Assembly (NCBI GenBank): GCA_950295325.1
Contig: OX485806.1
Coordinates: forward strand, 44,697,169-44,761,168
DNA length: 64,000 nucleotides
Direction: 5' to 3'
From: Polytrichum commune
Lineage: Eukaryota; Streptophyta; Polytrichopsida; Polytrichales; Polytrichaceae
In this document: positions 7,301 through 63,044 of the stretch, piece by piece
Position numbering within the stretch: position 1 is the first letter of the stretch
Layout: the number at the start of each line of letters is the position of its first letter
Program-made: the position numbers and the translations under genes
Notes under the pieces: generated by a model
Seen by the model: only the letters and a program-made list of their open reading frames with translations
Told to the model about the DNA's origin: nothing
Databases searched by the model: none

Positions 7301-10300
7301 TAATAACTACATAACCATCAAAAAGCCACACCTAAGCCTTTTGGAACTCAAAACACCTCAAAGTAAGCATAGAATGGATGGATCTCTCAAATCAGCACCT
7401 TTCCACACCAAAGCTAAGCTTAATAACTATATATCCATGAAAAAACCACACCTAAGCCTTTTGGAACTCAAAACACCTCAAAGTAAGCATAGAATGGATG
7501 GATCTCTCAAGTCAGCACCTTTCCACTCCAAAACTAAGCTTAATAACTACATAACCATCAAAAAGCCACACCTAAGCCTTTTGGAACTCAAAACACCTCA
7601 AAGTTAGTTTTGAATGGATGGATCTCTCAAGTCAGCACCTTTCCACACCAAAACTAAGCCAAATAACTACATAACCATCAAAAAACCACACCTAAGCCTT
7701 TTGGAACTCAAAACACCTCAAAGTAAGCATAGAATGGATGGATCTCTCAAGTCAGCACCTTTCCACTCCAAAACTAAGCTTAATAACTACATAACCATCA
7801 AAAAGCCACACCTAAGCCTTTTGGAACTCAAAACACCTCAAAGTAAGCATAGAATGGATGGATCTCTCAAGTCAGCACCTTTCCACTCCAAAACTAAGCT
7901 TAATAACTACATAACCATCAAAAAGCCACACCTAAGCCTTTTGGAACTCAAAACACCTCAAAGTTAGTTTTGAATGGATGGATCTCTCAAGTCAGCACCT
8001 TTCCACACCAAAACTAAGCCAAATAACTACATAACCATCAAAAAACCACACCTAAGCCTTTTGGAACTCAAAACACCTCAAAGTAAGCATAGAATGGATG
8101 GATCTCTCAAGTCAGCACCTTTCCACTCCAAAACTAAGCTTAATAACTATATAACCATCAAAAAGCGACAACTAAGCCTTTTGGAACTCAAAACACCTCA
8201 AAGTAAGCATAGAATGGATGGATCTCTCAAGTCAGCACCTTTCCACACCAAAACTAAGCCAAATGACTACATAACCATAAAAAAAAAACCAAAACTAAGC
8301 CTTTTGGAACTCAAAACACCTCAAAGTAAGCATAGAATGGATGGATCTATGAAGTCAGCACCTTTGCACTCCAAAACTAAGCTTAATAACTACATAACCA
8401 TCAAAAAGCCACAACTAAGCCTTTTGGAACTCAAAACACCTCAAAGTAAGTATAGAATGGATGGATCTCTCAAGTCAGCACCTTTCCACACCAAAACTAA
8501 GCCAAATAACTACATAACCATAAAAAAAAAACCAAAATTAAGCCTTTTTGAACTCAAAACACATCAAAGTAAGCATAGAATGGATGGATCTCTCAAGTCA
8601 GCACCTTTCCACACCAAAACTAAGCCAAATAACTACATAACCATCAAAAAACAACACCTAAGCCTTTTGGAACTCAAAACACCTCAAAGTAAGCATAGAG
8701 TGGATGGATCTCTCAAGTCAGCACCTTTCCACACCAAAACTAAGCCAAATAACTACATAACCATCAAAAAACAACACCTAAGCCTTTTGGAACTCAAAAC
8801 ACCTCAAAGTAAGCATAGAATGGATGGATCTCTCAAGTCAGCACCTTTCCACACCAAAACTAAGCCAAATAACTACATAACCATCAAAAAACCACACCTA
8901 AGCCTTTTGGAACTCAAAACACCTCAAAGTAAGCATAGAATGGATGGATCTCTCAAGTCAGCACCTTTCCACACCAAAACTAAGCCAAATAACTACATAA
9001 CCATCAAAAAACCACACCTAAGCCTTTTGGAACTCAAAACACCTCAAAGTAAGCATAGAATGGATGGATCTCTCAAGTCAGCACCTTTCCACTCCAAAAC
9101 TAAGCTTAATAACTACATAACCATCAAAAAGCCACACCTAAGCCTTTTGGAACTCAAAACACCTCAAGGTTAGTTTTCAATGGATGGATCTCTCAAGTCA
9201 GCACCTTTCCACTCCAAAACTAAGCTTAATAACTATATAACCATCAAAAAGCCACACCTAAGCCTTTTGGAACTCAAAACACCTCAAAGTTAGTTTAAAA
9301 TGGGTGGATCTCTCAAGTCAGCACCTTTCCACTCCAAAACTAAGCTTAATAACTATATAACCATCAAAAAGCCACAACTAAGCCTTTTGGAACTCAAAAC
9401 ACCTCAAAGTAAGCATAGAATGGATGGATCTCTCAAGTCAGCACCTTTCCACTCCAAAACTAAGCTTAATAACTATATAACCATCAAAAAGCCACACCTA
9501 AGCCTTTTGGAACTCAAAACACCTCAAAGTAAGCATAGAATGGATGGATCTCTCAAGTCAGCACCTTTCCACACCAAAACTAAGCCAAATAACTACATAA
9601 CCATCAAAAAACCACACCTAAGCCTTTTGGAACTCAAAACACCTCAAAGTAAGCATAGAATGGATGGATCTCTCAAGTCAGCACCTTTCCACTCCAAAAC
9701 TAAGCTTAATAACTACATAACCATCAAAAAACCACACCTAAGCCTTTTGGAACTCAAAACACCTCAAAGTAAGCATAGAATGGATGGATCTCTCAAGTCA
9801 GCACCTTTCCACACCAAAACTAAGCCAAATAACTACATAACCATCAAAAAACCACACCTAAGCCTTTTGGAACTCAAAACACCTCAAAGTTAGTTTTGAA
9901 TGGATGGATCTCTCAAGTCAGCACCTTTCCACTCCAAAACTAAGCTTAATAACTATATAACCATGAAAAAGCCACAACTAAGCCTTTTGGAACTCAAAAC
10001 ACCTCAAAGTAAGCATAGAATGGATGGATCTCTCAAGTCAGCACCTTTCCACTCCAAAACTAAGCTTAATAACTACATAACCATCAAAAAACCACACCTA
10101 AGCCTTTTGGAACTCAAAACACCTCAAAGTAAGCATAGAATGGATGGATCTCTCAAGTCAGCACCTTTCCACACCAAAACTAAGCCAAATAACTACATAA
10201 CCATCAAAAAACCACACCTAAGCCTTTTGGAACTCAAAACACCTCAAAGTTAGTTTTGAATGGATGGATCTCTCAAGTCAGCACCTTTCCACTCCAAAAC

Positions 10301-13300
10301 TAAGCTTAATAACTATATAACCATGAAAAAGCCACAACTAAGCCTTTTGGAACTCAAAACACCTCAAAGTAAGCATAGAATGGATGGATCTCTCAAGTCA
10401 GCACCTTTCCACACCAAAACTAAGCCAAATGACTACATAACCATAAAAAAAAACCAAAACTAAGCCTTTTGGAACTCAAAACACCTCAAAGTAAGCATAG
10501 AATGGATGGATCTCTCAAGTCAGCACCTTTCCACACCAAAACTAAGCCAAATAACTACATAACCATTAAAAAAAAACCAAAATTAAGCCTTTTGGAACTC
10601 AAAACACATCAAAGTAAGCATAGAATGGATGGATCTCTCAAGTCAGCACCTTTCCACACCAAAACTAAGCCAAATAACTACATAACCATCAAAAAACCAC
10701 ACCTAAGCCTTTTGGAACTCAAAACACCTCAAAGTAAGTATAGAATGGATGGATCTCTCAAGTCAGCACCTTTCCACACCAAAACTAAGCTTAATAACTA
10801 TATAACCATCAAAACGCCACAACTAAGCCTTTTGGAACTCAAAACACCTCAAAGTAAGCATAGAATGGATGGATCTCTCAAGTCAGCACCTTTCCACACC
10901 AAAACTAAGCCAAATAACTACATAACCATCAAAAAACCACACCTAAGCCTTTTGGAACTCAAAACACCTCAAAGTAAGCATAGAATGGATGGATCTCTCA
11001 AGTCAGCACCTTTCCACTCCAAAACTAAGCTTAATGACTACATAACCATCAAAAAGCCACACCTAAGCCTTTTGGAACTCAAAACACGTCAAAGTAAGCA
11101 TAGAATGGATGGATCTCTCAAGTCAGCACCTTTCCACTCCAAAACTAAGCTTAATAACTACATAACCATCAAAAAGCCACACCTAAGCCTTTTGGAACTC
11201 AAAACACCTCAAAGTAAGCATAGAGTGGATGGATCTCTCAAGTCAGCACCTTTCCACACCAAAACTAAGCTTAATAACTATATAACCTTAAAAAAACCAC
11301 ACCTAAGCCTTTTGGAACTCAAAACACCTCAAAGTAAGCATAGAATGGATGGATCTCTCAAGTCAGCACCTTTCCACTCCAAAACTAAGCTTAATAACTA
11401 CATAACCATCAAAAAGCCACACCTAAGCCTTTTGGAACTCAAAACACCTCAAAGTTAGTTTTGAATGGATGGATCTCTCAAGTCAGCACCTTTCCACTCC
11501 AAAACTAAGCTTAATAACTATATAACCATCAAAAAGCCACAACTAAGCCTTTTGGAACTCAAAACACCTCAAAGTAAGCATAGAATGGATGGATCTCTCA
11601 AGTCAGCACCTTTCCACACCAAAACTAAGCCAAATAACTACATAACCATCAAAAAACCACACCTAAGCCTTTTGGAACTCAAAACACCTCAAAGTAAGTA
11701 TAGAATGGATGGATCTCTCAAGTCAGCACCTTTCCACACCAAAACTAAGCCAAATAACTACATAACCATCAAAAAACCACACCTAAGCCTTTTGGAACTC
11801 AAAACACCTCAAAGTTAGTTTTGAATGGATGGATCTCTCAAGTCAGCACCTTTCCACTCCAAAACTAAGCTTAATAACTATATAACCATCAAAAAACCAC
11901 ACCTAAGCCTTTTGGAACTCAAAACACCTCAAAGTAAGCATAGAATGGATGGATCTCTCAAGTCAGCACCTTTCCACTCCAAAACTAAGCCAAATAACTA
12001 CATAACCATAAAAAAAAAACCAAAATTAAGCCTTTTGGAACTCAAAACACATCAAAGTAAGCATAGAATGGATGGATCTCTCAAGTCAGCACCTTTCCAC
12101 ACCAAAACTAAGCCAAATAACTACATAACCATCAAAAAACCACACCTAAGCCTTTTGGAACTCAAAACACCTCAAAGTAAGTATAGAATGGATGGATCTC
12201 TCAAGTCAGCACCTTTCCACACCAAAACTAAGCTTAATAACTATATAACCATCAAAACGCCACAACTAAGCCTTTTGGAACTCAAAACACCTCAAAGTAA
12301 GCATAGAATGGATGGATCTCTCAAGTCAGCACCTTTCCACACCAAAACTAAGCCAAATAACTACATAACCATCAAAAAACCACACCTAAGCCTTTTGGAA
12401 CTCAAAACACCTCAAAGTAAGCATAGAATGGATGGATCTCTCAAGTCAGCACCTTTCCACTCCAAAACTAAGCTTAATGACTACATAACCATCAAAAAGC
12501 CACACCTAAGCCTTTTGGAACTCAAAACACGTCAAAGTAAGCATAGAATGGATGGATCTCTCAAGTCAGCACCTTTCCACTCCAAAACTAAGCTTAATAA
12601 CTACATAACCATCAAAAAGCCACACCTAAGCCTTTTGGAACTCAAAACACCTCAAAGTAAGCATAGAGTGGATGGATCTCTCAAGTCAGCACCTTTCCAC
12701 ACCAAAACTAAGCTTAATAACTATATAACCTTAAAAAAACCACACCTAAGCCTTTTGGAACTCAAAACACCTCAAAGTTAGTTTTGAATGGATGGATCTC
12801 TCAAGTCAGCACCTTTCCACTCCAAAACTAAGCTTAATAACTATATAACCATCAAAAAACCACACCTAAGCCTTTTCGAACTCAAAACACCTCAAAGCAA
12901 GCATAGAATGGATGGATCTCTCAAGTCAGCACCTTTCCACACCAAAACTAAGCTTAATAACTATATAACCATCAAAACGCCACAACTAAGCCTTTTGGAA
13001 CTCAAAACACCTCAAAGTAAGCATAGAATGGATGGATCTATGAAGTCAGCACCTTTCCACTCCAAAACTAAGCTTAATAACTACATAACCATCAAAAAGC
13101 CACACCTAAGCCTTTTGGAACTCAAAACACCTCAAAGTAAGCATAGAATGGATGGATCTCTCAAGTCAGCACCTTTCCACTCCAAAACTAAGCTTCATAA
13201 CTACATAACCATCAAAAAACCACACCTAAGCCTTTTGGAACTCAAAACACCTCAAAGTAAGCATAGAATGGATGGATCTCTCAAGTCAGCACCTTTCCAC

Positions 13301-27390: not shown

Positions 27391-27497
27391 GGCCTTAAGG
27401 CCATGTCGGATCCGACAGGCCCTTTATGGGCCACCTTCGAACCTCTCAATTTGTTTTTATTTTAAACTTTGAACTCTGTGAGCTCACTGTAAGGTAA
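27391..27497 (+). repeat. Palindrome block, full copy 1
   Basis: In order: ggccttaaggcc (27391-27402), tgtcggatccgaca (27404-27417), the hairpin ggccctttatgggcc (27418-27432), a poly-T stretch, and gtgagctcac (27478-27487). The first, second and fourth are perfect palindromes. A G-run (ggggggggtgtgagagg) precedes the block, as in the other copies. Confidence 0.85.
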
Positions 27498-30786: not shown

Positions 30787-31490
30787 AGGGGCTAGGTTGA
30801 TAGTCTAATTTGAGGTAGGGAAATGAGTTTATATTCTGGTTTGAGGTTAAGGGGCTAGGTTGAGTGGTCTGCTTTGAGGTGGGAAAATGTGTTTAAATTC
30901 TGGTTTGAGGTTTAGGGGCTAGATTGAAGGGTCTGATTTGAGGTGGGAAAATGAGTTTCTATTCTAGTCTGAGATTAGGGGGCTAGGTTGATAGTTTGAT
31001 GTGAGGTGGGAAAATGTTTTGATTTTCTGGTTTTGGGACAAGGGGCTAGGTTGAGGGGGGGGTGTGTGAGGTGTTAGGGGAGGGCCTTAAGGCCATGTCG
31101 GATCCGACAGGCCCTTTATGGGCCACCTTCGAACCTCTCAAATTGTTTTGTTTCTTAATTTTGAACTCTGTGAGCTCACTGTAAGGTAATGATTTAAGGT
31201 TGGAAACTGAGTTTATATTCTAGTTTGAGGTTTAGGGGCTAGGTTGATAGTCTGATTTGAGTTTGGAAATTGAGTTTATTTTCTGGTTTGATATTAGGGG
31301 GCTAGGTTGAGTGGTCTGATTTGAGGTGGGAAAATGTGTTTAAATTCTGGTTTGAGGTTTAGGGGCTAGATTGAGTGGTCTGATTTGAGGTGGGAAAATG
31401 TGTATATATTCTGGTTTGAGGTTAGGGGGCGAGGTTGAGTGGTCTGATGTGAGGTGGGAAAATGTGTTTATATTATGGTTTCTAGGCTTG
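30787..31490 (+). repeat. ~64-bp minisatellite tract 2
   Basis: The same unit family as tract 1 resumes right after the insertion and continues to about 31490, where it fades into gggtggaattttgaaactctgg. It contains palindrome block copy 2. Together with tract 1 it forms one array split by the insertion. Confidence 0.88.
31083..31190 (+). repeat. Palindrome block, full copy 2
   Basis: It has ggccttaaggcc at 31083-31094, then tgtcggatccgaca, then ggccctttatgggcc, and gtgagctcac at 31170-31179, in the same order and spacing as copy 1. It is preceded by the same G-run and followed by the same 'tgtaaggtaatgattt' end. Confidence 0.85.
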
Positions 31491-31736
31491 AGTGGTGGGG
31501 TGGGAGGTGGAATTTTGAAACTCTGGTTGGATGGGCCCATTAGAACCCAACTTCATTGTGTGCTCACAATAAGGTCGGATGTTAGGTCGCAAAGGGTCTC
31601 AATTTGGCTCTGTCGGTTCTGACAGACCCTCTGGACCCAGCTTCCGAACCTCATAAAGTGTGCATTATGATGCATATTGTATTCATTTGCTTGCTTCTCA
31701 TGTTTCCAAGTAATTGCTTCTCATGAGATTGTTCAG
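31491..31736 (+). other. Non-coding stretch upstream of exon 1, with a diverged palindrome block
   Basis: About 31597-31655 reads tgtcggttctgacagaccc followed by 'ccgaacctca', recognisably a diverged palindrome block. The final 60 bases are T-rich and end in ttgttcag directly before an ATG, so this may be the 3' end of an intron and the true first exon may lie further upstream. No other gene is seen. Confidence 0.5.
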
Positions 31737-32464
31737 ATGGATGCAGATGGAGAGTCATTGGATGTTGGGGTTGGCATTGGCGCTGGATCATCTTTTATTG
31801 CTGAGGAGCATAGGGAGCATAGGTCTCCTTTGACATGTGCTGAAAATATTGGGCTTATCCCAGGTAGTAGCGAACCGTAGACACCCGGGATGCCACTGTG
31901 CGGCTCACCTGAAGAGTCGGATGTGGGTGTTCGTGCAATGGAGTATCGCATTCGCCACAATTTAAAGAAAGATAGTTTTTCAGTTGTTGAGGGCATGAAG
32001 ATACAACCTGTCAAAAAGTCTTCTATGATAATCCCCCTCTGCAGGTTGATTCACATGCCATTGGTTTACCCAACCCTCCGCATCGACGTTACAAAGCTCA
32101 TGGCGGCATTTCAATTTGGATACCGAGCTGGGTCTGCCACTTTGTATGTGTCTACTACAAATGAGACTAGAGATAATCGATTCATTTCTACGAAAGACAG
32201 ACGTGAATGGGGAGAGCTTTGGGGTGCAGAAAATGAGAAGTTTGAATCTTTTTTGCGCGCGGATAAGGACCTGATGAGCCTCAGTGGATGTATGTTTTTC
32301 ATGTATGATGGTAACCACCGTTTGCTTGCGTGGAAGGAGTGTATCAAATCATATCACAAGGACGATGCACTCTAATACGAGAAGCATGGTTGCCCTGATT
32401 GTGTCGTCCTCGACACAACGGGTGGGCGTGGGGACGTCCTTAACGCAATGCATGACATCAACAA
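31737..32464 (+). pseudogene. Exon 1: ParB-like domain
   Basis: The ATG at 31737 follows a splice-acceptor-like ttgttcag. The exon ends before gtaagtatg at 32465. The ParB-like core starts near LVYPTLRIDVTKL and ends after the DGNHRLLAWKE box, which matches the 'G-hydrophobic-HR' box II of ParB N-terminal domains. In-frame TAG (codon 48) and TAA (codon 213) would stop translation, yet the frame reads sensibly on both sides of each. ParB-type domains bind or cleave nucleotides. The ParB assignment rests mainly on the box II match and on the linked methyltransferase. Confidence 0.7.
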
Positions 32465-33421
32465 GTAAGTATGACATTTTTTCAAAACGTTTTTTCAAAT
32501 CATTTTATCCTTCATTTTTTGAGTTGCATCTAATGGGATTTGTCTCAACCATAACAGGGCTAACCAGACCGCCCACGTTAAAACTAGCATCATACACACT
32601 CTACACCGCATCCAAAAATACGGTTCGTATGATCTTAACTACTACCAGCCATTATTGACCAAGGAGCAATTCTAAGCGTGTAAGAGCAGAGGCCCCAAGA
32701 GCCCTTGGTACCCGCTGACCCAGGATCTTATGGTGTCCTTCATTTTCAATGTACGTCACTCCAAATTCCTCAACCTCCTGTTTTGCATTCATTGTTTTTA
32801 GTCATGATCTAACAATTGAGAATATATCCTCAGCAAGAGATAGCCGATGCGGTAGATGAGGTAGCCCAAATCTACAAGGAGGATGTGCCTCCTGAGGAGC
32901 AGTCAGGGAAGGGGTTGAGTGTAGTATTGGACGTTGTGATTAAGAAGACCACTGAGGAACTTGGGCACAAGTTTAACAAGCAACAATCGATCGCAAACCC
33001 GGCCCTTGGAAAAGAGTTCCTGGAGGAGGTTAATTCCTTTTCACCACCTACGGAATTATACCCTCCGTATTGCTTGCATTATTTGTAGCACTTTGTCAGA
33101 ATAAATTCTCAAATTTACTCCGCCTTCTATTTTGATGTCATTTGTTTCAGGTTACTAGGCATTATAGCGCCCACCATTCTCAAAAGATTGAGATGACATT
33201 GGAGAAATTGCAACCCATTGCCACAGCTGCTGTGGAGCCAGAGTATAAAGTCCGTTGGCTAAAGTGGTGGAATAGTGGAAGTTTCAATCGTGAAGCTATC
33301 CGGTTTCCCAAAAGTCCTGCAAGCGAGGACACCTTGAAACCTTGGCTCAATAAAGCAGCGTTTCTGGGCAGGGGTGCGTCTATCCTCCTTATCTTTACTT
33401 ACCTTACAACTCTTAGGGGAG

Positions 33422-33525
33422 GGCCTTAAGGCCATGTCGGATTCGACAGGCCCTTTAGGGGCCACCTCAGAACCTCTCAAATATGTATTTTTTAAACTTT
33501 GAACCCTGTGAGCTCACAGTAAGGA
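33422..33525 (+). repeat. Palindrome block, full copy 3
   Basis: It has ggccttaaggcc at 33422-33433, tgtcggattcgaca (one mismatch from a perfect palindrome), ggccctttaggggcc, and gtgagctcac at 33508-33517. This is the only full copy not preceded by minisatellite: exon 4 lies just upstream. Confidence 0.82.
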
Positions 33526-34248
33526 TATGATTTGAAGTTGGAAAATGAGTTTATATTCTGGTTTGAGGTTTAGGGGCTAGGTTGAGTGGTCTGATGTGAG
33601 GTTGAAAAATGTTTTTATTTTTTGGTTCCGTTTTGGGGCTAGGTTTAGTGGTATGATGGGAGGTTGGAAAATGTTTTTATATTCTCGGTTTCAGGTTAAG
33701 TGGGCTTGATTGAGTGTTCTGATGTGAGGTTGGAAAATGTATATATTTTGTGGTTTCAGGTTAGGGGCTAGGTTGAGTGGTTTGATGTGAGGTTGGAAAA
33801 TATGGTTATTTTCTGGTTTCAGGTTAAGGGGCTTGATTGAGTGGTCTGATGTGAGGTTGGAAAATATGGTTATTTTCTGGTTTCAGGTTAAGGGGCTTGA
33901 TTGAGTGGTCTGATGTGAGGTTGGAAAGTGTATATATTTTCTGGTTTCAGGTTAGGGGCTAGGTTGAGTGGTCCGATGTGAGGTTGGAAAATGTTTTGGT
34001 TTTTTGGTTTCAGTTTTGGGGCTATGTTTAGTGGTATGATGTGAGGTTGGAAAATGAATTTATATTCTGGTATGAGGTTTAGGGGCTAGGTTGATAGTCT
34101 GATTTGAGGTTGGAAAATGAATTTATATTCTGGTTTGAGGTTAGGACGTTAGGTTGATAGTCTGATGTGAGGTGGGAAAATGTTTTGATTTTATGGTTTC
34201 GGGTCAAGGGACTAGGTTGAGGGGGGGGTGTGAGAGGTGTTAGGGGAG

Positions 34249-34356
34249 GGCCTTAAGGCCATGTCGGATCCGACAGGCCCTTTATGGGCCACCAACGAAC
34301 CTCTCAAATTGTTTTTTTTTTTAACTTTGAACTCTGTGAGCTCACTGTAAGGTAAT
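34249..34356 (+). repeat. Palindrome block, full copy 4
   Basis: It has ggccttaaggcc at 34249-34260, tgtcggatccgaca, ggccctttatgggcc, and gtgagctcac at 34336-34345, preceded by gaggggggggtgtgagagg. Confidence 0.85.
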
Positions 34357-35333
34357 GATTTGAGGTAGGGAAATGACTTTATATTCTGGTTTGAGGTCTA
34401 GGGGCTAGGTTGAGTTGTTTGATTTGAGGTTGGGAAATGAGTTTATATTCTGGTTTGAGGTTTAGGGGCTAGGTTGAGTGGTCTGATTTAAGGTTGGAAA
34501 ATGAGTTTATTTTCTAGTTTGAGGTTAGGGGGCTAGGTTGATAGTCTGATGTGAGGTGGGAAACTGTTTTGATTTTCTATTTTGAGGTTTAGGGGCTAGG
34601 TTGAGTGGTTTGATTTAAGGTTGGAAAATGAGTTGATATTCTGGTTTGAGGTTTAGGGGCTAGGTTGAGTGGTCTGATTTGAGGTTGAGAAATGAGTTTA
34701 TTTTCTGGTTTGAGGTTAGGGGGCTAGGTTGAGTGGTCTGATTTGAGGTTGGAAAATATGGTTATTTTCTGGTTTTAGGTTAAGGGGCTTGATTGAGTGG
34801 TCTGATGTGAGATTGGAAAATGTTTAAATTAATGGGTTTCAGGTTATGGGGCTTGATTGAGTGGTCTGATGTGTGGTTGGAAAATATGGTTATTTTCTGG
34901 TTTCAGGTTAGGGGCTAGGTTGAGTGGTCTGATGTGTGGTTGGAAAATATGGTTATTTTCTGATTTGAGGTTAAGGGACTTGATTGAGTGGTCTGATGTG
35001 AGGTTGGAAAATATGGTTATATTCTGGGTTTCAGGTTAAGGGGGCTTGATTGATTGGTCTGATGTGAGGTTGGAACACATGTTTATTTTCTGGTTTCAGG
35101 TTAGGGGCTAGGTTGAGTGGTCTGATTTGAGGTTGGAAAATGTGTTTATATTCTGGTTTCAGGTTAGGGGCTAGGTTGAGTGGTCTGATTTGAGGTAGGG
35201 AAATGAATTTATATTTTGGCTTCGGGTTAAGGGGCTAGGTTGATAGTCTGATTTGAGGTGGGAAAATGTTTTGATTTTCTAGTTTCGAGTTAAAAGGCTA
35301 GGTTGAGGGGGGGTGTGAGAGGTGTTAGGGGAG

Positions 35334-35440
35334 GGCCTTAAGGCCATGTCAGATCCGACAAGCCCTTTATGGGCCACCTTCGAACCTCTCAAATTGTTTT
35401 TTTTTTAACTTTGAACTCTGTGAGCTCACTGTAAGGTAAT
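35334..35440 (+). repeat. Palindrome block, full copy 5
   Basis: It has ggccttaaggcc at 35334-35345, tgtcagatccgaca (one change), agccctttatgggcc, and gtgagctcac at 35420-35429. Block order and spacing match the other copies. Confidence 0.83.
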
Positions 35441-35892
35441 GATTTGAGGTGGAAAAATGTGTTTATATTCTAGTTTGAGGTTAGGGGGCTAGGTTGAGAG
35501 GTCTGATTTGAGGTTGGGAAATGAATTTATATTCTAGTTTGACGTTTAGGGGCTAGGTTGAGTGGTTTGATTTAAGGTTCGAAAATGAGTTTATATTCTA
35601 GTTTGAGGTTTCGGGGCTAGGTTGAGTGGTCTGATTTGAGGTTGAGAAATGAATTTATTTTCTGGTTTGAGGTTAGGGGGCTAGGTTGAGTGGTTTGATT
35701 TGAGGTAGGGAAATGAGTTTATATGTTGGTTTCGGGTTAAGGGGCTAGGTTGAGGGGGGGTGTGAGAGGTGTTAGGGGAGGGCCTCCGAACCTCTCCAAC
35801 TTTTCTTGAGTTTTCCTTTTTAAGCTCAAGTGTTACTTATCTTGGTGGGATGTGGCGATTCTTATCTTGGCGTTGAATTTGTCCACAGCTAG

Positions 35893-38113
35893 AGGATGCC
35901 GCGGTCAAGGAGTTACCCGATATACTTAATGCCTTGGGTGGGCTTGACGGAGACGTGGAAGTTGATTCATTGTCGGAGTACTTGGAGAAGTGGCGAATCT
36001 GTCTCTGGGATAAGGCGTTTATTGGTCACTTTTCAGGGTCAGATATCTACGGAAAGGGGACGTGGTGGAAGGATGTCAAAGGCGCTGACAACATTGTCAA
36101 GCGCTTAATCTGTCGGTACGTAAGTTGGAAAATCTTTTGTTCACCTCATTTATTTCGAACCATTTGTTTTCTAAGTTGTTGATTGGCCTCACTCCTTCGT
36201 TGTCAAGGTACATCAAGCACGAGCTTTTCAAAAAGAAGGCTTTGAAGAAGCTCCCTCCATTTCTAGACGCATGGTCAGATTCTTCTTCACCTACCTTCAT
36301 ATTTTTCCCGACTCAAAAGTGCAACTTTTCCCTCCCGCATCTCCGCAAGTGTTGCTGGTATTTGGAATGTAAGAGGACGTGGCAACTGGATGAGGAGGCG
36401 GAGTTGAAGATTCGGCTCTCCGGTGGAGAGCCTCCCCTGCCTCCTACTCAAAGCGATGAGGTTGTTATCCTTGACAGTCAACTTTCGGAGGCGGACGAGG
36501 TTGTTGCGACTCTCGATGAGGCCAACACACAGAAGTCCAAGAGGAGGAAGCGTGCAACTCAAGACGAGTCATCATTGAAGAAGCGCGTGAGGAAGCTCAA
36601 GACTGTGGAGGATGATCCCCCTCCCCCTGCGTCACCTGAGGCGGCTATTGCATCCCCTGCAACTCTTAGTCAATTACCTACTCTGTCCAGGCCACCTCCA
36701 CCGCCCGTTCTTTCATCTGCCAATCCTCCTCCGGTTGTTTCAGAATGCATCTTGAATGCCTCCATTCTCCATCAACGTCGTCATTTTCAGGAAGTTTCAA
36801 ACTTCATCCTTTCTCTTCCACCCTCCCATCCTAAGAGAGCTCTAGGCTTCACGAGGTCAGATGTGGGCATGGCTGATCTTGTCATTGTTGACATCCCTGA
36901 GAACCTGCCCGTGCGCAATGTCTCCGATCCTGCATATAGTGTACCTCCCTGGAATGCATTAGATCCCGATTTTATTGGTGAACTCTTCGATTTCGCGGAC
37001 AAGATCCTGCATGACGATGGAGCTCTCCTCCTCTTTCATCCAGATGACAATGGTGACTTCAGGGAGAGCATTCAAGACCACTTCGCTGCTTTTGGGTTCA
37101 CCATCTTCAAGGAGTGGCTGGGAGTCAACCGTCTTCGCCTACAGTCAGCTAAGCATGTGGACAAGACCACCAACCTCTTCCCAGTTGTACTACTTGTTCG
37201 TGCCACGAAAACAATCGGATCCAACCTTGATAAGCGGCCCCGACACTCGTCATTTTGCCTTCGCGATGCCAATGAGCTCAAGGCTCTTGGCATTGAGCTC
37301 GACATGGATGATGCCATTATGAATTATACCACAACTCCTCTCATGGACGGCTCCAAAGCTTGGCGTTGTCCCCGGGAGAAAGATATTTCTTTCATGTCCT
37401 CCTTGATCATGGCCACTACGGACATTGGACAGGTCGTGGTGGACGTTAATGCAGGCGTTGGTATGTCCTACTTCACTTGCCATCATATCCTAGTTTTCAC
37501 TTTCTACATTTGCTTTTATTTATCTTTGCTAACATTTCCCTCGCAACAGGGACTTCTGTCCATGCATGCAGGCAGCTTGGGCGCCATATCGTTGCTCTCG
37601 AGGAGGACGAGGACACCTTCAACCGTGTCCTTAAGCCACTTAAGGCTCCATCCATTGTTGTTGCTGCCACGCAGTCTTCACAAGGCACGCAGAAGAGGCT
37701 GCTGGCCTTGAAGCGATCGAGGCGACAACCCTCGCAGTAAGTGAGTATGATAACCATCTTCGCTTCATTTCCTTGTCCGCTCAGCTTTTACACTTTCCAT
37801 CCTCTTTCTTACAATTTTCATGCTTGCTTTCAGACTTGGCCTTGGAGCAGATGTGTTTGGTACTCCCACCATGGGATTCACTTTGCCAATCTATGCCCAT
37901 GATATGGCAATGGTCCTAGCGGCACAACCTTCTCCTACCAAAGCTAGTACCCCGTCTCCACGTTATGACCCCCGTGCCATAGACTTATTCGAGCTTTTTG
38001 CAGAGGTGGATAATGAGTGCCATAGCTTAGATTCCACTTCAGATGATGGCGGCCATGAGGGGAGTATCTTTGGAAGTAAGGAATCTAGTAGTGACAACCT
38101 CATTGTTGATTGA
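35893..38113 (+). CDS. Methyltransferase-like half of the fusion gene (exons 5-8, open)
   Basis: Exons 35893-36115, 36208-37460, 37550-37736 and 37834-38113 join in one open frame ending in TGA. Exon 6 alone gives about 417 codons. It holds a basic patch, a Pro-rich linker, the beta-strand/motif IV site LVIVDIPENLP, and FADKILHDDGALLLFHP, which resembles the 'vLkpgG' helix-strand of amino-methyltransferases. The motif I loop DVNAGVG|TS is split by intron 6 and followed by RHIVALEEDEDTF, with an acidic residue at the end of strand 2 as in AdoMet binders. Motif IV before motif I is beta-class order. The catalytic [DNS]PP[YFW] is changed to DIPE, so methyl transfer may be lost. The C-terminus is acidic and Ser-rich. 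AdoMet binding is inferred from family motifs. Confidence 0.75.
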
Positions 38114-38489
38114 TTTTTGGTTTGATTGATTGGTATTTGGATTTATAAAGTGTGGTGTGGTTTTCAATATTCCAATTATCTCATTGAATGCATCTTTTCG
38201 TTGTTCTCAAATCACACTACACTTGGTGGTCGTCATACTCCAAAGAGAATTTGGTCCACCATCTTCTCAACCATAGTGAATTTTCCCATGGTCATAGGGC
38301 CTCATTGGTATATTTAAGAAACTTTTTGGTTCTAAAAATTGGGCACTTCATAAATATGGGCCTCATAATTTCAAATTAAACTTGAAATATGTGCAAAATC
38401 CACGGTCATAAGGGTCCTAACTTTCGTTAAATGGAGTTTTAAATTTTGATTTTCTGCTCACCGCTCACCGCTCACCGCTCACCGCTCAC
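38114..38489. other. 3' flank of the fusion gene with a short (GCTCACC)n microsatellite
   Basis: This A/T-rich stretch after the TGA may hold the 3' UTR. No clear polyadenylation signal was identified. About five copies of gctcacc end it at 38456-38489, just before the start of retroelement copy A. No gene is seen. Confidence 0.55.
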
Positions 38490-39099
38490 ATCGTAGCATT
38501 CCTGAGAAATTGGTTTTGTGGCACCAAACCAATTCGTCTCGCGGACGGAATGTTTAAAGTTGGGTTTGCGGACAAAGCCAAGCCAAGTTGCCGAGGACGG
38601 AATGTTGGACGATGGCTTTGTGGCCAAGGCTAGTAGCCTTAAGCCGAGGCCAAGTCTCATGGATTGACAAAGAGTCAACATATTCCTTGATGAGCCGAAG
38701 CTCATAAGGTGTTGGGGTTTGCCGACTCGTATAGTGGGCAAGCTCAGTAATGTACGGTCTTTAAGGGTGAACCCCATGAAATAAGGTAATGGCGATGTCT
38801 TTGACGTTATAATGTGGGACATTGGAATTTGTGGACATTCTACACTATGTAAAATGGATGAGGTGCCCTCACTTTGGAGGACACCTTCTTTGAAACTCAC
38901 ATGAAAGATGTGAGTCGCAAGCTGGTGAGCTTACAGTGCATTTGTGATGTGCCATGATGGCAAAGAATTGAACTACAAATTGACAAGGATTCCTATGGAA
39001 GGAGGATCCAAGTTGAATTTGGTCTTAATGGACCAAATGAATGGTTGTGGTTCAATTGGAGCAACTCCAAAGAACTCATGGGGAGGGTAGGAAAGATGG

Positions 39100-40610: not shown

Positions 40611-40636
40611 TGCAAGATACGGGAGGGGTAAATTAA

Positions 40637-41633
40637 CTACCCCGAGGCACAAAAACTTTTAGGTGAGCTTCGCAAGAGCAAGTTGCTCAAAGAGGTTAAG
40701 TTGGTGGACGGATTGTTCAAGTGTAAGCAAAGTCGGGTGTATGTGCCACAAGGCAAGTTGAGGCTATCAGTTTTGAAGGAGGAATATGATAGTCCTATTG
40801 CCGGCCATAAAGGAGAAAGAAAAAACCGCCATAGAATGGCATCAAGGAGGTTCCATTGGCGGTGCATAAAGGAGGATATAACCCACTTTGTCAAGGCTTG
40901 GATGAAGTGCCAAGTGAACCGAGCCTCTTACCAAAACCAAGGCGGTTTCTTGCAACCGTTGCTTATCCCGTCGGGGCCATGGTATAGTATGTGCATGGAC
41001 TTGATCACAAGTTTGCCGGAGTCACATGGGTATGATGCCATTTTGTTGATGGTTGAGCGGTTTGCCAAGTTGGCACACATGGTGCCGATTGTGGGAACCA
41101 TGACCGTGTTGGAGACCGCATAGCCTTTTCTCAAAGGATGGTTGAGGCACCATGGGTTGCCAAGAGTGATTGTGTCGGATCCAAAGTTCACAAGTGCATT
41201 TCCAATGCATTTATCTAAGGAGGTTGTATTGAAACTAAGGCTTAGCACGGCCTTACATTCCCAAATGGATGGGAAAACAAAGCGTGTGAATGGAGTCTTG
41301 AAGCAATACTTGAGGAACTTTTTGGGGGCGGACCAAGGAGATTGGGCGGACCATGTGGATCGAGCGGAGTTTAGTTGTAATGTAGCCACGCACTTGGCGA
41401 CCAAGGGGTTGTCTTTCATGGTGGCTTATGGAGTGGATGCGCTCCAACCTACTAACCTAACTCTCGAGGGGGCACATTCAACACTAGAGTTCAACCAAGA
41501 TGGTGAGGACTTGGCCAAGAAGCGTGAACAAGTCTTGGAGATGACCAAGTTGTTGGTGGAGAAAGCTCGAAGGTGCTACGAAGTGCAAGTCAATGCCAAA
41601 AGACGCGAAGTGGAGTATGAGGTGGGCCAATAA
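40637..41633 (+). pseudogene. Ty3/gypsy integrase (decayed)
   Basis: The frame from 40683 is interrupted by one TAG at 41121 and continues in the same frame to 41633. The zinc-finger region keeps the AGHKGERK part, but the first Cys of the Cys pair is replaced by Trp (KAWMKCQ). The catalytic core shows CMDLITSLPES (first Asp) and VIVSDPKF (second Asp). The family's 'DGQTERVN' reads DGKTKRVN, so the catalytic Glu is Lys. Two independent defects therefore make it inactive. Copy B carries the same Lys. Confidence 0.8.
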
Positions 41634-42889: not shown

Positions 42890-43250
42890 GTGGGGCTGAG
42901 TATAGCCCCCCTTGACAATCTTGCCAATTTTCAATTCTAGCAAAGGTTACGAGCGCTAACCATTCGCATTCCGCCATGCTAATGGTTAGCTCCCCCTACC
43001 CCGGACCATATAGTTCATAGGAGGGGAACCAACCCTCCTACTTTACTTTCGGGACTCACCCCTTAATCGGTAACCAATTCCCAAATGTGGACTTCCATCC
43101 ATGGAAGTCCAATCCTATGTTCATCATCGCATTGCCGGAGCAACACTACAACAACCCGAACCATATTAGGCAACTATGGCCTCACATTGGGCCAATGCCC
43201 ATGGAGGCCGTGCCGTTCGGCCTCGGGTGGGTGAGGCCACACCACCTCAC

Positions 43251-43260
43251 CCATATAAGC
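43251..43260 (+). promoter_or_regulatory. TATA box in the LTR-type insertion
   Basis: ccatataagc is a consensus plant TATA context, with ctctaggactctacgcgggg about 30 bases downstream as a plausible start region. It is conserved in the inverted partner (gcttatatggg near 46746). Confidence 0.55.
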
Positions 43261-43564
43261 CTCTAGGACTCTACGCGGGGCCCCTACCCCACTGTCAAGA
43301 AACCTCTTGTCTCTCTACCAAGAGTTGGGGCCAAGTGGACATTTTCCTTTACCTGCTGGGCCTAGAACCCCCCCAGCAGGTTCAGACCATCATAACTTCC
43401 TTGTACGATGTCTGATCATAACAACCAACCACTCCATCTTCATCTACGCTTCACGTAGATGCCCATGGACTCCTCACTTGCCCCATTCGAGCAAGTCTTG
43501 AGGAAGTTATGCCTGTTTGAACTTTGGCAGTCCCGGGAATCACTCCCAGGCACTGCTGTACCAG

Positions 43565-43586
43565 GGCGCTGTCCCGGGACAGCGCC
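43565..43586. repeat. 22-bp perfect palindrome
   Basis: The arm ggcgctgtccc is followed at once by its reverse complement gggacagcgcc, with no loop. The same palindrome is kept at 46420-46441 in the inverted partner. Confidence 0.9.
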
Positions 43587-43862
43587 CCACTCAAATGGCC
43601 ATAACTCCTAGCTCACACCTCCGCCTGAGGTGATCTTGAGCATTCTAGAATCACCACGCCATGAGCTACACATAGCTTATGGCCTTACCCTCATGCCTCC
43701 TAGTCTCCGTGGGTGGGAGGCGTTCCCAACGTCCGGGGCCCTCACCCACACTAGGATGACTTGGGCCCTCTCACCAACGGCGCCACAAGTCCCGGGTGTC
43801 ACTCCGGGGTCCCCCTTGTGCCCATGGTGTTTCGGGCACTCCTCTTGGAGAGCTGCGCGACA

Positions 43863-46143: not shown

Positions 46144-47119
46144 TGTCGCGCACCTCTCCATAAGGAGTGCCCGAAACACCATGGGCACAAGGGGGACCCC
46201 GGAGTGACACCCGGGACTTGTGGCGCCGTTGGTGAGAGGGCCCAAGTCATCCTAGTGTGGGTGAGGGCCCCGGGCGTTGGGAACGCCTCCCACCCACAAA
46301 GACTAGGAGGCACAAGGGTAAGGCCATGAGCTATGCGTAGCTCATGGCGTGGTGATTCTAGAAAGCTCAAGAACACCTCAATCGGAGGTGTGAGCTAGGA
46401 GTTATGGCCATTTGAGTGGGGCGCTGTCCCGGGACAGCGCCCTGGTACAGCAGTGCCTGGGAGTGATTCCCGGGACTGCCAAGGTTCAAACAGGCATAAC
46501 GTCCTCAATACTTGCCCAAATGGGGCAATTGAGGAGTCCATCGGCATCTACGTGAAGCGTAGATGAAGATGGAGTGGTTGGTTGTTATGATCAGACATCA
46601 TACAAGGAAGTTATGATGGTCTGAAGCTGCTGGGGGGTTCTAGGTCCAGCAGCTAAAGGAAAATGTCCACTTGGCCCCAACTCTTGGTAGAGAGACAAGA
46701 GGTTGGTTGACGGTGGGGTAGGGGCCCCGCGTGAAGTCCTAGAGGCTTATATGGGTGAGGTGGTGTGGCCTCACCCACCCGAGGCCGAACGGCACGGCCT
46801 CCATGGGCATTGGCCCAATGTGAGGCCATAGTTGCCTAGTATGGTTCGGGTTGTTGTAGTGTTGCTCCGGCAATGCAATGATCAACATAGGATTGGACTT
46901 CCATGGATGGAAGTCCACATTTGGGAATTGGTTACCGATTAAGGGGTGAGTCCCGAATGTAAAGTAGGAGGGTTGGTTCCCCTCCTATGAACTATTAGGT
47001 CCGGGGTGAGAGGAGCTAACCATTAGCATGGCGGTATGCGAAGGGTTAGCCACTCGTAACCTTTGCTAGAATTGAAAATTGGCAAGATGGTCAAGGGGGG
47101 GCTAGCAAGGGTTGCGACA
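46144..47119 (-). mobile_element. Solo LTR-type insertion with ATTGC target duplication
   Basis: The element begins TGTCGCGCACC and ends GGTTGCGACA, so its ends form the short inverted pair TGTCGC/GCGACA. It is 976 bp and flanked by ATTGC at 46139-46143 and 47120-47124. Copy A keeps the empty site (caagtcattgcggtgac near 40442), which proves insertion into copy B. It has no coding region. The strand is set by the TATA box, which points left. An inverted relative is at 42890-43862. Confidence 0.9.
46420..46441. repeat. 22-bp perfect palindrome (partner copy)
   Basis: It consists of ggcgctgtccc followed by its reverse complement, identical to 43565-43586 although the surrounding elements have diverged. 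Confidence 0.9.
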
Positions 47120-47596
47120 ATTGCGGTGGCATGATAGTTTGGCGCTTATGAAGGTGGATTTGATCCACAAACCGGACCGTGGAAATGTGGTGCCGGATGC
47201 GCTAAGTAGAGGGGAAGAGTTCCAAGCAATGAGAACCATCAAAACCTTGTGGCTAATGTGTGCCGGCGAAGGAAACTTGTGATGCAAGATATGAGAGGGG
47301 TAAATTAACTATTCCAAAGCACAAAATCTTTTAGGTGAGCTTCGCAAGAGCAAGATGCTCAAAGAGGTTAAGTTGGTGGACGGATTGTTCAAGTGTAAGC
47401 AAAGTTGGGTGTATGTGTCACAAGGCAAGTTAAGGTTATCCGTTCGAAAGGAAGAATGTGATAGTCCTATTTCCGGCCATAAAGGAGAAAGAAAAAACCG
47501 CCATAGAATGGTGTCATAGAAAGTACCATTGGCGGTGTATAAAGGAGGATATAGCCCACTTTGTGAAGGCTTGTGTTTAAGTGCCAAGTGAACCGA

Positions 47597-54009: not shown

Positions 54010-56898
54010 ATGCCACGCCGAAATGATGCATGGGATCATTGGTACGAGGATAAGGGGATGGTTCCCGGTAAATCACAGAGGCAGGTTAAATGTAGGTTTT
54101 GCCCGTTCGTCATATCTTACCGAGGAAATAGAATGTTGGCCCACCTTGGTTATAGACCTCCTGTAGGGGGTGCTTGTGATGTTTCCACATGTAGGATGGT
54201 ACCCCCGCATATTAGGGACTTGTTTGAACATTGCGGAGGGATTGTGCCCTTACATGTAGGCATTGTAAATGAGGACTTTCCGGTGCCAGATATTGTACCT
54301 CTGGAGCCTATTATAGCGGACTCCGTAATTAGTGAAACAGAGCCTTTGCTTATGTCCCAATCCACTTAACATTCTGATGTTGTGATATATGGCACACCTC
54401 CTCGTGAACTACGTCAACTCAACATAACGGAGGGGTTCAATGTGTCAACAAAACAACTCCTTGATAGAGCATGGGCAACGGCTTTTTATGAAGCTAACAT
54501 TCCTTTCAACATTGTGAGACATCCTGCATTTGTTCATGCTGTGCGTGAAACTGCCCGTCATCGAATGCCAGCCTACACACCACCATCGTACAATGCCATC
54601 CGTACGAAGTTGTTAACTGATAAAAAGGTTGACCTAGATAGGCAAATGAAGGAGAAGATGGGGAATTCCGTTGAAAAATACGGTGTTACAATATGTTGTG
54701 ATGGATGGGACAACGTGCAAAACCGACCTCTCCTAAACGTTCTCCAATGCGGCACAAAGGGAGACGTTTTCTTGGGTACCATTGATACCACGGGAAATCA
54801 CAAGGATCATGTATACGTTGCTGCTCAAATTCAACCATTTGTGGAAAAAGTTGGTCGACATAATGTGGTCCAGATTTGCACCGACAATGCCCCAGTTATG
54901 GCCTCCGCTGCTCGCGACTTGATTCAAGCAAATCCCGATCTATATTTTCAAGGATGTGCTGCGCATTGCCTAGATCTCCTCTTAGAAGATTGGGGGAAGG
55001 AGGAATGGGTGAAAAAGTTGGTAAAAAAGGCGCGCCATATTTGTGTTTTTATCAAAAACCATCATGCTTCTCAAGCTATATTCCGGAGGTTGTCACCAAA
55101 TCTCTCACTCCGCCTACCTGTAGAGACCCGTTTTGCAACGAACTTCATCATGATAGATCGTCTTCTTCAAGTACGCAATGCTTTGGAAAGAATGGTGGTT
55201 GATGAGGATTGGCCTACTCTAATGCGTGATATGAGGAGGAGATCTCGCACCTCTTACATGAAGGGCTCTGCTGTGCGAAGCTTTATATGTTCTGATGGAT
55301 TCTGGAACACGTGCGAAAATTTCTTGTATATGGTGATCCCGGTTGTTAAAGCTCTTCGTGTATTTGATGGCAAGGCGCCTGCAATGGGAATGGCTTGGAG
55401 GGTCATGCATGATTTACAAACCCATATTCGTGGATTCAGTAAACCTCCATTTCGCTTAAGCCCTGAGCTTGCTGCAAATGCTATGCTAACGTTTCAAAAT
55501 AGGTGGAGGTTGATGTTGAATGATCTACATTGGGCTGGAGCGATGTTAAATCCGCTTCTACGTGGTTGGGCCCCACTCCATGAGGATGAGAATTTGAGGA
55601 CAATCCTAAATCGAGTTCTTCGCAAGCTTGCTCAAGATGAGGACACTTATGTCCAAATCCTCCACCAGTACCAAGATTTCCTTGAAAATCGAGGGCCTTT
55701 TGCTGATTCTACTGACCCGAGCGTGCATGCCGCACCTCTCCATGAATGGTGGGATACAATGGGAGGTGGAGCTAAAGCCCTCCAAACAATAGCAAGACGT
55801 ATCCTTGCACAAGTATGTTCCGCATCCGCATGTGAACGCAATTGGAGCATGTACTCATATGTTCACAACAAGAGTCGCAATCGCTTGAAGCATAGTCGTG
55901 CCGAGGACCTCGTCTACATATATACCAATAGTAGGCTCATTCGACATCGGAGGGGCCCAAGACATGCGCAATGGTACGAATTGAATGAGGTCCATTCCGA
56001 CAATGACCTTGACGAAGAAGATGACGTGGATCCAAATGATAGGGCCGGAAATGATGACGACAACAATGTTGATGACATTGACTTTGATTTGGATGATCTC
56101 GATTTTGATAATCGTGATTCTGATGATGGTAATGATAGTGATGGAAACCTTGGGGTGTTTGATTTTGATAAAGCGGATGTCCCCCATCATAACGATGTAA
56201 TGCACGATGATCATGAGGGACCTATTGGAAGACCACATTTTGATACCGTCCATACTGGACAAGGTTTTCGCTCTGACCATAATGTTGCTATGGGAGCACC
56301 GGAGAATGTAGGAATTGAAGTAGGTTCCTTGCAACCTCATAGCGATTCTCTTTCTTTTGGTGGAGGTGACAATGTACTACCAACAAACGAGCCAACGCAT
56401 ATTCAACATGATCAACTTCCAGCCATAGTACATTCTAAATCCATGGACGCCCCCCTCATATCCAACCATCGTATAGAAGTTTTAACGTCCAATGTTGCTG
56501 AAAGGCCCACAACTCGATTTCGTGCTCTTCAAAGAAGTGCATCCACCTCTACGGTGCAAGTGCATGCACAACGTCAACATCGTCCTCTCACTCAAAGTAT
56601 TGCCAATACTTCTAGATTGGGTGCTTCACGTGCAACTGCGGTGGGTGCTACTTTGGTTGCTATACACAATGTTTCAAGAAATGTTACTACAGAGGCGCCA
56701 CGTCGTCAATATGTTCGTCGACATGTTGTTGAGAACATACCAATTGCAATTCCATCCGCATCAGTTTCACTTCCACACAGTCAATCCAATGGAACAGGTG
56801 GCCTTGGAGTTGGAGGCGGAAGTACAACGGGGGATGTTTTTATAGATGGAAGTAGAGATGAAGTGCATTCAAGTCGTGGTACGGGTGGAGGGCGTTAG
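54010..56898 (+). CDS. hAT-family transposase (BED finger, DUF659, hAT dimerisation), one internal stop
   Basis: The ATG at 54010 (MPRRNDAWDHW) opens a frame broken only by TAA at 54367 (codon 120) and then open to TAG at 56896. A BED-type zinc finger comes first (CRFC, later H and C). DUF659/RNase H-fold residues follow: CDGWDN with Asp231, CTDNAP with Asp292, CAAHCLDLLLEDWGK, and SACERNW with Glu609, the expected hAT D-D-E. The hAT C-terminal dimerisation region (PLHEWWDTMGG onward) follows, then an Asp-rich tail (about 660-720). The protein would cut and paste the element. The stop separates the DNA-binding finger from the catalytic part, and no ATG lies close behind it, so the gene is probably inactive or needs read-through. 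The frame stays coding-like past the TAG (RTTRGVKRTRKRYQGR) to about 57060. Domesticated DUF659 proteins exist, but the flanking arrays and the stop favour a transposon copy. Confidence 0.88.
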
Positions 56899-62820: not shown

Positions 62821-63044
62821 CGTGAAAAAAACTGCGTGAGTGAGTGAATGTAGAAAGGAGTGAGTGAATGTAGAAATGAGTGCGTGAATCTGGAAAAAAA
62901 ATTGCAAGGGTTCCCCCACAATTTGCCCTGCCCTCCCAAACCCCCTGAGACCCGCGCGGTGCCGCTGTCTTTGGGACGGCAACAAGGTCTCGGGTCCCTT
63001 TGTGGTGGGAGGAGAGGAAAGTGAGGGGAACTAAAACCCCACAG

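Follow-up and report, generated by a model that had tools for sequence, protein, structure and literature searches.

The 64-kb stretch of genomic DNA analyzed here (the window, on contig C4 of its genome) contains a spliced gene at positions 31737-38113 that joins a ParB-like domain to a methyltransferase domain. It is a copy, now decayed, of an accessory gene belonging to a large multi-copy DNA transposon of a land plant. Our slight preference is for a reading in which the protein encoded by the transposon would recognize the palindromic repeats of its own element and mark, clamp or shield that element.

The transposon and its copies

The genome searched is the window's own (407.8 Mb in 64 contigs). 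The window gene recurs in it far beyond chance, because a search with exon 1 gave 1,073 candidates, the best 150 of which yielded 151 matches when scored. Matches from these best candidates comprise one group with 76-100% identity to the window exon and subfamilies with ~37-51% identity. Nine near-identical copies were fetched for comparison. All nine are bordered on both sides by a direct duplication of 10 bp, different in sequence each time, and they have their right border in common, with unrelated flanks beyond it. The element is ~17 kb long; the copy on contig C1 (c1 hereafter) measures 17,041 bp. Its terminal inverted repeat is imperfect and spans ~23 bp, with 15 of the 23 end bases matching by hand count. 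Sharp ends with a target duplication, together with terminal inverted repeats, characterize the element as a cut-and-paste DNA transposon. An earlier note, made from the letters of the window alone, had suggested part of a mobile element as one source of the gene, and the multiple copies with 10-bp target duplications bear this out.

Seven of the nine copies encode an uninterrupted protein of 1,096 residues through seven GT-AG introns, with 0-5 residue differences from c1; of the other two, one is broken by an internal stop, and the second, which lacks the anchor strings, could not be scored. For the ratio of non-synonymous to synonymous substitution (dN/dS) in exon 1, five of 11 pairs were kept: four usable pairs give 0.16-0.24, and the window against an intact copy gives 0.29; a twelfth, distant pair (c1 and L040) was saturated. 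Three diverged genes give tblastn pieces that stop at shared splice positions, including that of the intron inside motif I of the methyltransferase. The two of these genes with ~41% identity show further tblastn breaks, which may be extra introns. The many copies with target duplications and the splice positions common to subfamilies of ~40-50% identity led us to reject both a recent bacterial transfer and a host gene. The earlier note had entertained a transferred DNA-modification system; the gene is one of many element copies, not a DNA-modification gene of the host.

The element has two genes arranged head to head, with the transposase-like gene on the strand opposite to the ParB-like/methyltransferase gene. 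We apply the label "transposase" provisionally, from position, repetition and motifs. A large collection of proteins contains 304 relatives (E-values up to 1) of a 417-residue core of this gene, whose members retain conserved D and C-x-x-H positions. No convincing Pfam family was found for the core, and no Pfam MULE domain matched; PF00872 (Transposase_mut) appears in one of 22 members with a weak E-value of 0.034. A second reading frame of the gene has a SWIM-like CxC...CxH pattern, where PF04434 scores 12.1 bits (E-value 0.14) against a cut-off of 19.6. Long terminal inverted repeats are typical, though not universal, for Mutator-like elements, and none were found here, the ends being the short imperfect repeats described above. 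The 10-bp duplication lies within the 8-11 bp range given for Mutator-like elements in the available passages of a published account (PMC6446971). Without such long repeats and with no recognized transposase domain, the Mutator-like assignment is provisional.

A genome search with the transposase-like core gave 1,993 candidates, of which the best 100 were scored. Pairing of the two genes was assessed with 148 of 151 ParB matches, 133 of 156 methyltransferase matches and all 100 transposase-like matches; as only the best candidates entered, all counts are minimum values. A ParB or methyltransferase exon match lies head to head within 40 kb of 45 of the 100 transposase-like matches, whereas 200 random placements (with contig C2 taken as 68.5 Mb, measured at 70.3 Mb) average 1.4 and never exceed 6. 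For four further transposase-like matches the neighbors are all in another arrangement, and the remaining 51 are without any among the matches listed. For at least 85 of 148 ParB places, a methyltransferase exon follows downstream within 30 kb on the same strand. The pairing extends to diverged subfamilies: ParB exons of 47-51% identity accompany transposase-like matches 81-83% identical to c1, and ParB or methyltransferase exons of ~37-47% accompany those of ~65% identity.

The window gene

The eight exons that the earlier note had proposed are present in the window, all with GT-AG borders, and the intact copies have the same eight exons. The claim that they join in one frame did not hold, as three in-frame stops and one frameshift (an extra base in exon 4) interrupt this copy. 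The features of the gene and its right-hand side are the following:

31737..32464, + strand: exon 1, encoding the N-terminal region with the ParB-like domain; two in-frame stops, 31878-31880 and 32373-32375
32307..32321, + strand: DGNHR box; GNHR invariant across 19 aligned relatives
32558..32750, + strand: exon 2; in-frame stop at 32673-32675
32834..33028, + strand: exon 3
33151..33373, + strand: exon 4; one extra base relative to intact copies (frameshift)
33528..35754, + strand: 64-bp minisatellite within intron 4
35889..36115, + strand: exon 5
36208..37460, + strand: exon 6, linker and bulk of the methyltransferase domain
36890..36901, + strand: motif IV position, with D-I-P-E replacing DPPY
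37550..37736, + strand: exon 7, remainder of motif I and the following acidic residue
37834..38113, + strand: exon 8, ending in TGA
38456..38490, + strand: CCGCTCA repeats, like the subterminal repeats at the ends of the intact element

Intron 4, which carries the minisatellite in the window, is only 83 bp long in one intact copy. The window gene is 88-90% identical to the c1 gene. The CCGCTCA repeats are a possible remnant of the right end of the window copy; no target duplication was found for it. In BLAST comparison the DNA between the two c1 genes aligns nowhere beside the window gene, and tblastn with the c1 transposase-like frames has no match in the 64-kb window. The window copy may have lost its transposase-like gene.

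The spliced plant gene described in the earlier note is upheld, and its plant setting is supported by protein domains encoded elsewhere in the genome. Four LEAFY-domain matches, three of them strong, and 41 dirigent-domain matches over the cut-off are present, and neither domain is found in 14 control genomes. To our knowledge, dirigent genes are restricted to land plants; the two domains together point to a land-plant genome. Relatives of exon 6 (P0124-P0149), up to 92% identical, also occur on public contigs, which come from several sources and are mostly short. The window's plant or a related one may be often sampled in such contigs.

The two domains of the encoded protein

The methyltransferase fold is supported by profile comparison. 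PF01555 (N6_N4_Mtase) matches all five methyltransferase sequences, three of them pieced together from exons, at E-values up to 10 with a best value of 2.2e-8; c1 scores 28.7 bits against a family cut-off of 26.7. A profile search of the Protein Data Bank (PDB) retrieves DpnA at 8.8e-8 and CcrM at 3.4e-5, and nine phage ParB-methylases, compared by profile, match with 97% probability and an E-value of 1.2e-10 over 176 columns. These results support the permuted beta-class domain predicted in the earlier note, and its motif order, with motif IV before motif I, is present. No variation among the five sequences is seen in the motif X-like PREK, in the D and second G of motif I, or in the acidic residue that follows strand 2, while one motif I glycine is not conserved. 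A search with a length filter set to 1096 residues found no homologues of the methyltransferase part at E-values up to 1; an exon-sized query gave 43 matches among 8,000 scored candidates.

At the motif IV position the window has D-I-P-E in place of the canonical catalytic tetrapeptide. We aligned this region for c1 and 18 of the 43 matches (19 of 44 available sequences); one match fails to cover motif IV. Three phage relatives read DLPF, DLPY and DPPY at this place. SDPSY/SDPPS was tried as an alternative motif IV and rejected, as the phage-enzyme profile alignment puts DLPE there; a caveat is one PDB alignment that set SDPSY on the DPPY of MboIIA.

The N-terminal domain is likely a ParB domain, though support for it is weak and at the level of motifs. 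The DGNHRLLAW box noted earlier is present in the window gene, and its GNHR is invariant in 19 of 19 aligned relatives. A hand-cut segment of four sequences aligns in register with the ParB profile, scoring 16.95, whereas none of 40 column shuffles exceeds 15.36. With 19 uncut sequences the best profile alignment is the GNHR box itself, with a score of 18.8 (60 shuffles reach no higher than 17.1) and a probability of only 1.6%; after removal of two insert stretches by hand, the register spans the ParB core with a score of 18.82, the shuffles reaching 18.72 at most. Pfam searches of the exon open reading frames and a PDB search with exon 1 identified no domain, and a phage search with the ParB part gave six records, none convincing.

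Palindromic sites

The tandem repeats between the two c1 genes carry a 14-bp palindrome, TGTCGGATCCGACA, which occurs 658 times genome-wide, with no occurrence of its reversed control. All 19 exact sites of c1 lie between its two genes, and 13 kb of its flanking DNA is free of them. Allowing up to one mismatch, the nine copies have 8-25 sites each, left of the right border, and none in ~6 kb of right flank; the 3.5-kb loci around exon 1 have 1-5 sites in 20 of 20 cases. Of the first 50 distinct sites, which lie on contig C1, 45 are within 10 kb of a ParB exon match by hand count, and the other five form a single cluster 36-44 kb from such a match. The window has three exact sites, two with one mismatch and one with two mismatches, all between 27404 and 35360 and none elsewhere in the 64 kb:

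27404..27417: TGTCGGATCCGACA, exact
31096..31109: TGTCGGATCCGACA, exact
31611..31624: palindrome with two mismatches
33435..33448: palindrome with one mismatch, in intron 4
34262..34275: TGTCGGATCCGACA, exact, in intron 4
35347..35360: palindrome with one mismatch, in intron 4

A second subfamily, with a ParB region of 58% identity, displays a related site. Its upstream repeats, spaced ~106 bp and ~320 bp apart, contain 12 core sites that follow the pattern GTCGG[AG]TC[CT]GAC, in which the outer base pair is altered symmetrically from T..A to G..C. The center of the site is mostly GGGTCC, and only two of the 12 are perfect palindromes. TGGTCGGRTCCGACCA is found at 66 distinct places in the genome, 57 of them within 10 kb of a subfamily-2 ParB or methyltransferase exon match and nine not, by hand count. 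Seven subfamily-2 sites at C5:29737775-29739493 have no ParB or methyltransferase exon match nearby among the matches listed; this cluster may be a non-autonomous or truncated element.

Proposed mechanism and alternatives

The preferred reading takes the following form. The ParB-like domain would bind the palindromes, probably as a dimer, and bring the methyltransferase-like domain to the promoter region of its own element. There the latter would mark, clamp or shield the DNA, with the outcome that the element genes are kept expressed or in balance. The gene and its pairing with the transposase-like gene, the borders of the element, the methyltransferase fold with an altered motif IV, the co-occurrence of the palindromes with the gene, and their difference between two subfamilies are observed at the level of sequence; we infer the ParB fold, the role of the ParB-like domain as site binder, production of the protein, DNA modification and benefit to the element. 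A fuller version, in which a land-plant transposon has its own ParB/parS-like pair, with intergenic palindrome arrays co-diverging by subfamily and self-marking through a methyltransferase-derived domain with a rebuilt catalytic motif, is a tentative proposal, plausible but somewhat short of an even chance.

Several observations weigh against the proposal. TGTCGGATCCGACA is absent, even within two mismatches, from all 17 diverged gene loci inspected (L040-L042 and L063-L076, mostly coding sequence), and the comparison of sites covers two subfamilies only. Because the palindromes sit in tandem repeats, they cannot be counted as independent events; plain common descent of the repeats may account for part of the likeness of sites between elements. 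The ParB half of the earlier note's prediction has motif-level profile support, but Pfam, including PF02195, matches no family in any of four sequences of the ParB part, a PDB profile search is likewise without a match, and our first ParB profile comparison was out of register, with a probability of 0.7%. The place of motif IV reads D-x-P-[ED] in 16 of the 18 alignable sequences, and neither DPP[YFW] nor the broader [DNS]PP[YFW] occurs in any of the 18; base methylation is doubtful because the aromatic residue of motif IV is replaced by E or D. The two genes also do not always diverge in step: at least five transposase-like matches 92-95% identical to c1 (C7:23408428, C3:48385765, C3:54811886, C2:10750418 and C4:33541423) stand beside methyltransferase exons only 37-45% identical. 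Modules have therefore probably been exchanged between elements, which may swap their accessory gene. Such exchange would fit the window copy, with its close likeness to the c1 gene and its lack of alignable c1 intergenic DNA.

The sites might instead be read by the transposase, which would produce the same co-occurrence of sites and gene. The palindromes would then be transposase binding sites, regulatory or for transposition, and the ParB-methyltransferase would act elsewhere, for example on host chromatin or at the element ends. The c1 sites, lying between the genes, are near each of them, and one subfamily-2 site (C4:33549454) has a transposase-like match 8 kb away and no ParB exon match among those listed. 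Against this, sites surround the window copy although tblastn finds no transposase-like gene in the 64 kb, where it may have been lost. Bacterial ParB proteins bind palindromes of the 14-16 bp kind, a length that the sites here fit. We consider this alternative unlikely. Rather better placed, though still doubtful, is a protein whose methyltransferase half is catalytically dead and which acts on its own element purely through DNA binding, as a silencer or anti-silencer. The absence of DPP[YFW] from all 18 alignable sequences, with D-x-P-[ED] in 16 of them, and the unconserved motif I glycine speak for it, but the invariant PREK, motif I D and second G, and acidic residue suggest that cofactor binding may persist, and the conservation of E or D itself suggests a use. 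A host gene of bacterial origin, duplicated passively by transposons in the manner of Pack-MULE capture, would draw on the ability of transposons to carry pieces of host genes, and the apparent module exchange does show that parts move. Such passive capture is highly improbable given that subfamilies of ~40-50% identity retain their splice positions and the head-to-head transposase-like pairing, and that exon 1 dN/dS is low in the copies.

Comparison with known systems

The nearest described counterpart to the self-recognizing element that we favor is Sola1-1_Ec32, a giant transposon of 21.5 kb from Ectocarpus, reported in 2025 with a ParB-like plus methyltransferase gene in a paper that also cites green and red algal cases (PMC12477816). 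The earlier note's idea of an unrecognized kind of element does not survive this precedent. According to the available passages, the Ectocarpus protein has 1104 residues against 1096 here, combines a ParB-like domain with a methyltransferase of the N4-methylcytosine/N6-methyladenine (4mC/6mA) type, and is encoded on the strand opposite to the transposase, as here, in a giant DNA transposon (PMC12477816). It differs in its Sola1 transposase and brown algal host, whereas the element described here has an unclassified transposase-like gene with a SWIM-like end, 10-bp duplications and a land-plant host. The same passages note transposon-borne ParB-methyltransferase proteins as possible binders and modifiers of their own element and name no target; palindromic sites are unmentioned in them (PMC12477816). 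The likeness of the two elements is one of described features. A literature search over titles and the openings of abstracts, mostly without subscription papers, gave no further land-plant report among the entries listed. New here are the land-plant host, the different transposase-like gene and the palindromic sites.

The proposed role might be comparable to that of the VANC proteins of VANDAL elements in Arabidopsis, where, in the passages available, an element encodes an accessory sequence-specific protein acting on its own element kind (PMC5735166, PMC10398659). VANC is described there as anti-silencing, and the likeness to the protein here is one of role. Phage fusions of ParB_N and N6_N4_Mtase, such as that of Streptococcus phage Javan244 (QBX25231.1), have the same domain order and matching methyltransferase profiles. 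By contrast, the Javan244 protein has 415 residues in a single coding sequence and reads DPPY, while the protein here is 1096 residues long, reads D-x-P-[ED] and has both a large central region and insertions within its ParB-like domain. Retrotransposons of dinoflagellates and charophytes with captured cytosine methyltransferases are likewise eukaryotic elements carrying a DNA methyltransferase; as far as the passages available describe them, these are C5-cytosine enzymes in retrotransposons, unlike the N6/N4-type fold in a DNA transposon (PMC5890265).

The palindromes supply a concrete candidate target, and the two subfamilies with their symmetrical base change a natural control, which turns earlier speculation into a binding test. 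If the proposal is true, a selfish element of a land plant has long kept a bacterial-type module for DNA recognition and modification, which bears on whether plant 6mA or 4mC is made by such elements.

Other features of the window

A long satellite array occupies positions 1-26130 with ~217 copies of a 120-bp unit and is stop-free over long stretches in one frame. An integrase zinc-binding domain and the next open frame at 40632-41633 (+ strand) resemble a decayed Gypsy-type retrotransposon. An inverted pair of ~820 bp, at 42908-43723 and 46283-47121, is 90-92% identical to positions 9525-10359 of the 17-kb element and may mark the long inverted termini of a different element nested here. An open frame of 842 residues at 54370-56898 (+ strand) encodes a hAT-type transposase with DUF659 and hAT dimerization domains. 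The open frame at 60781-63030 (- strand) has a weak, divergent protein-kinase match of 28.3 bits against a cut-off of 31.7.

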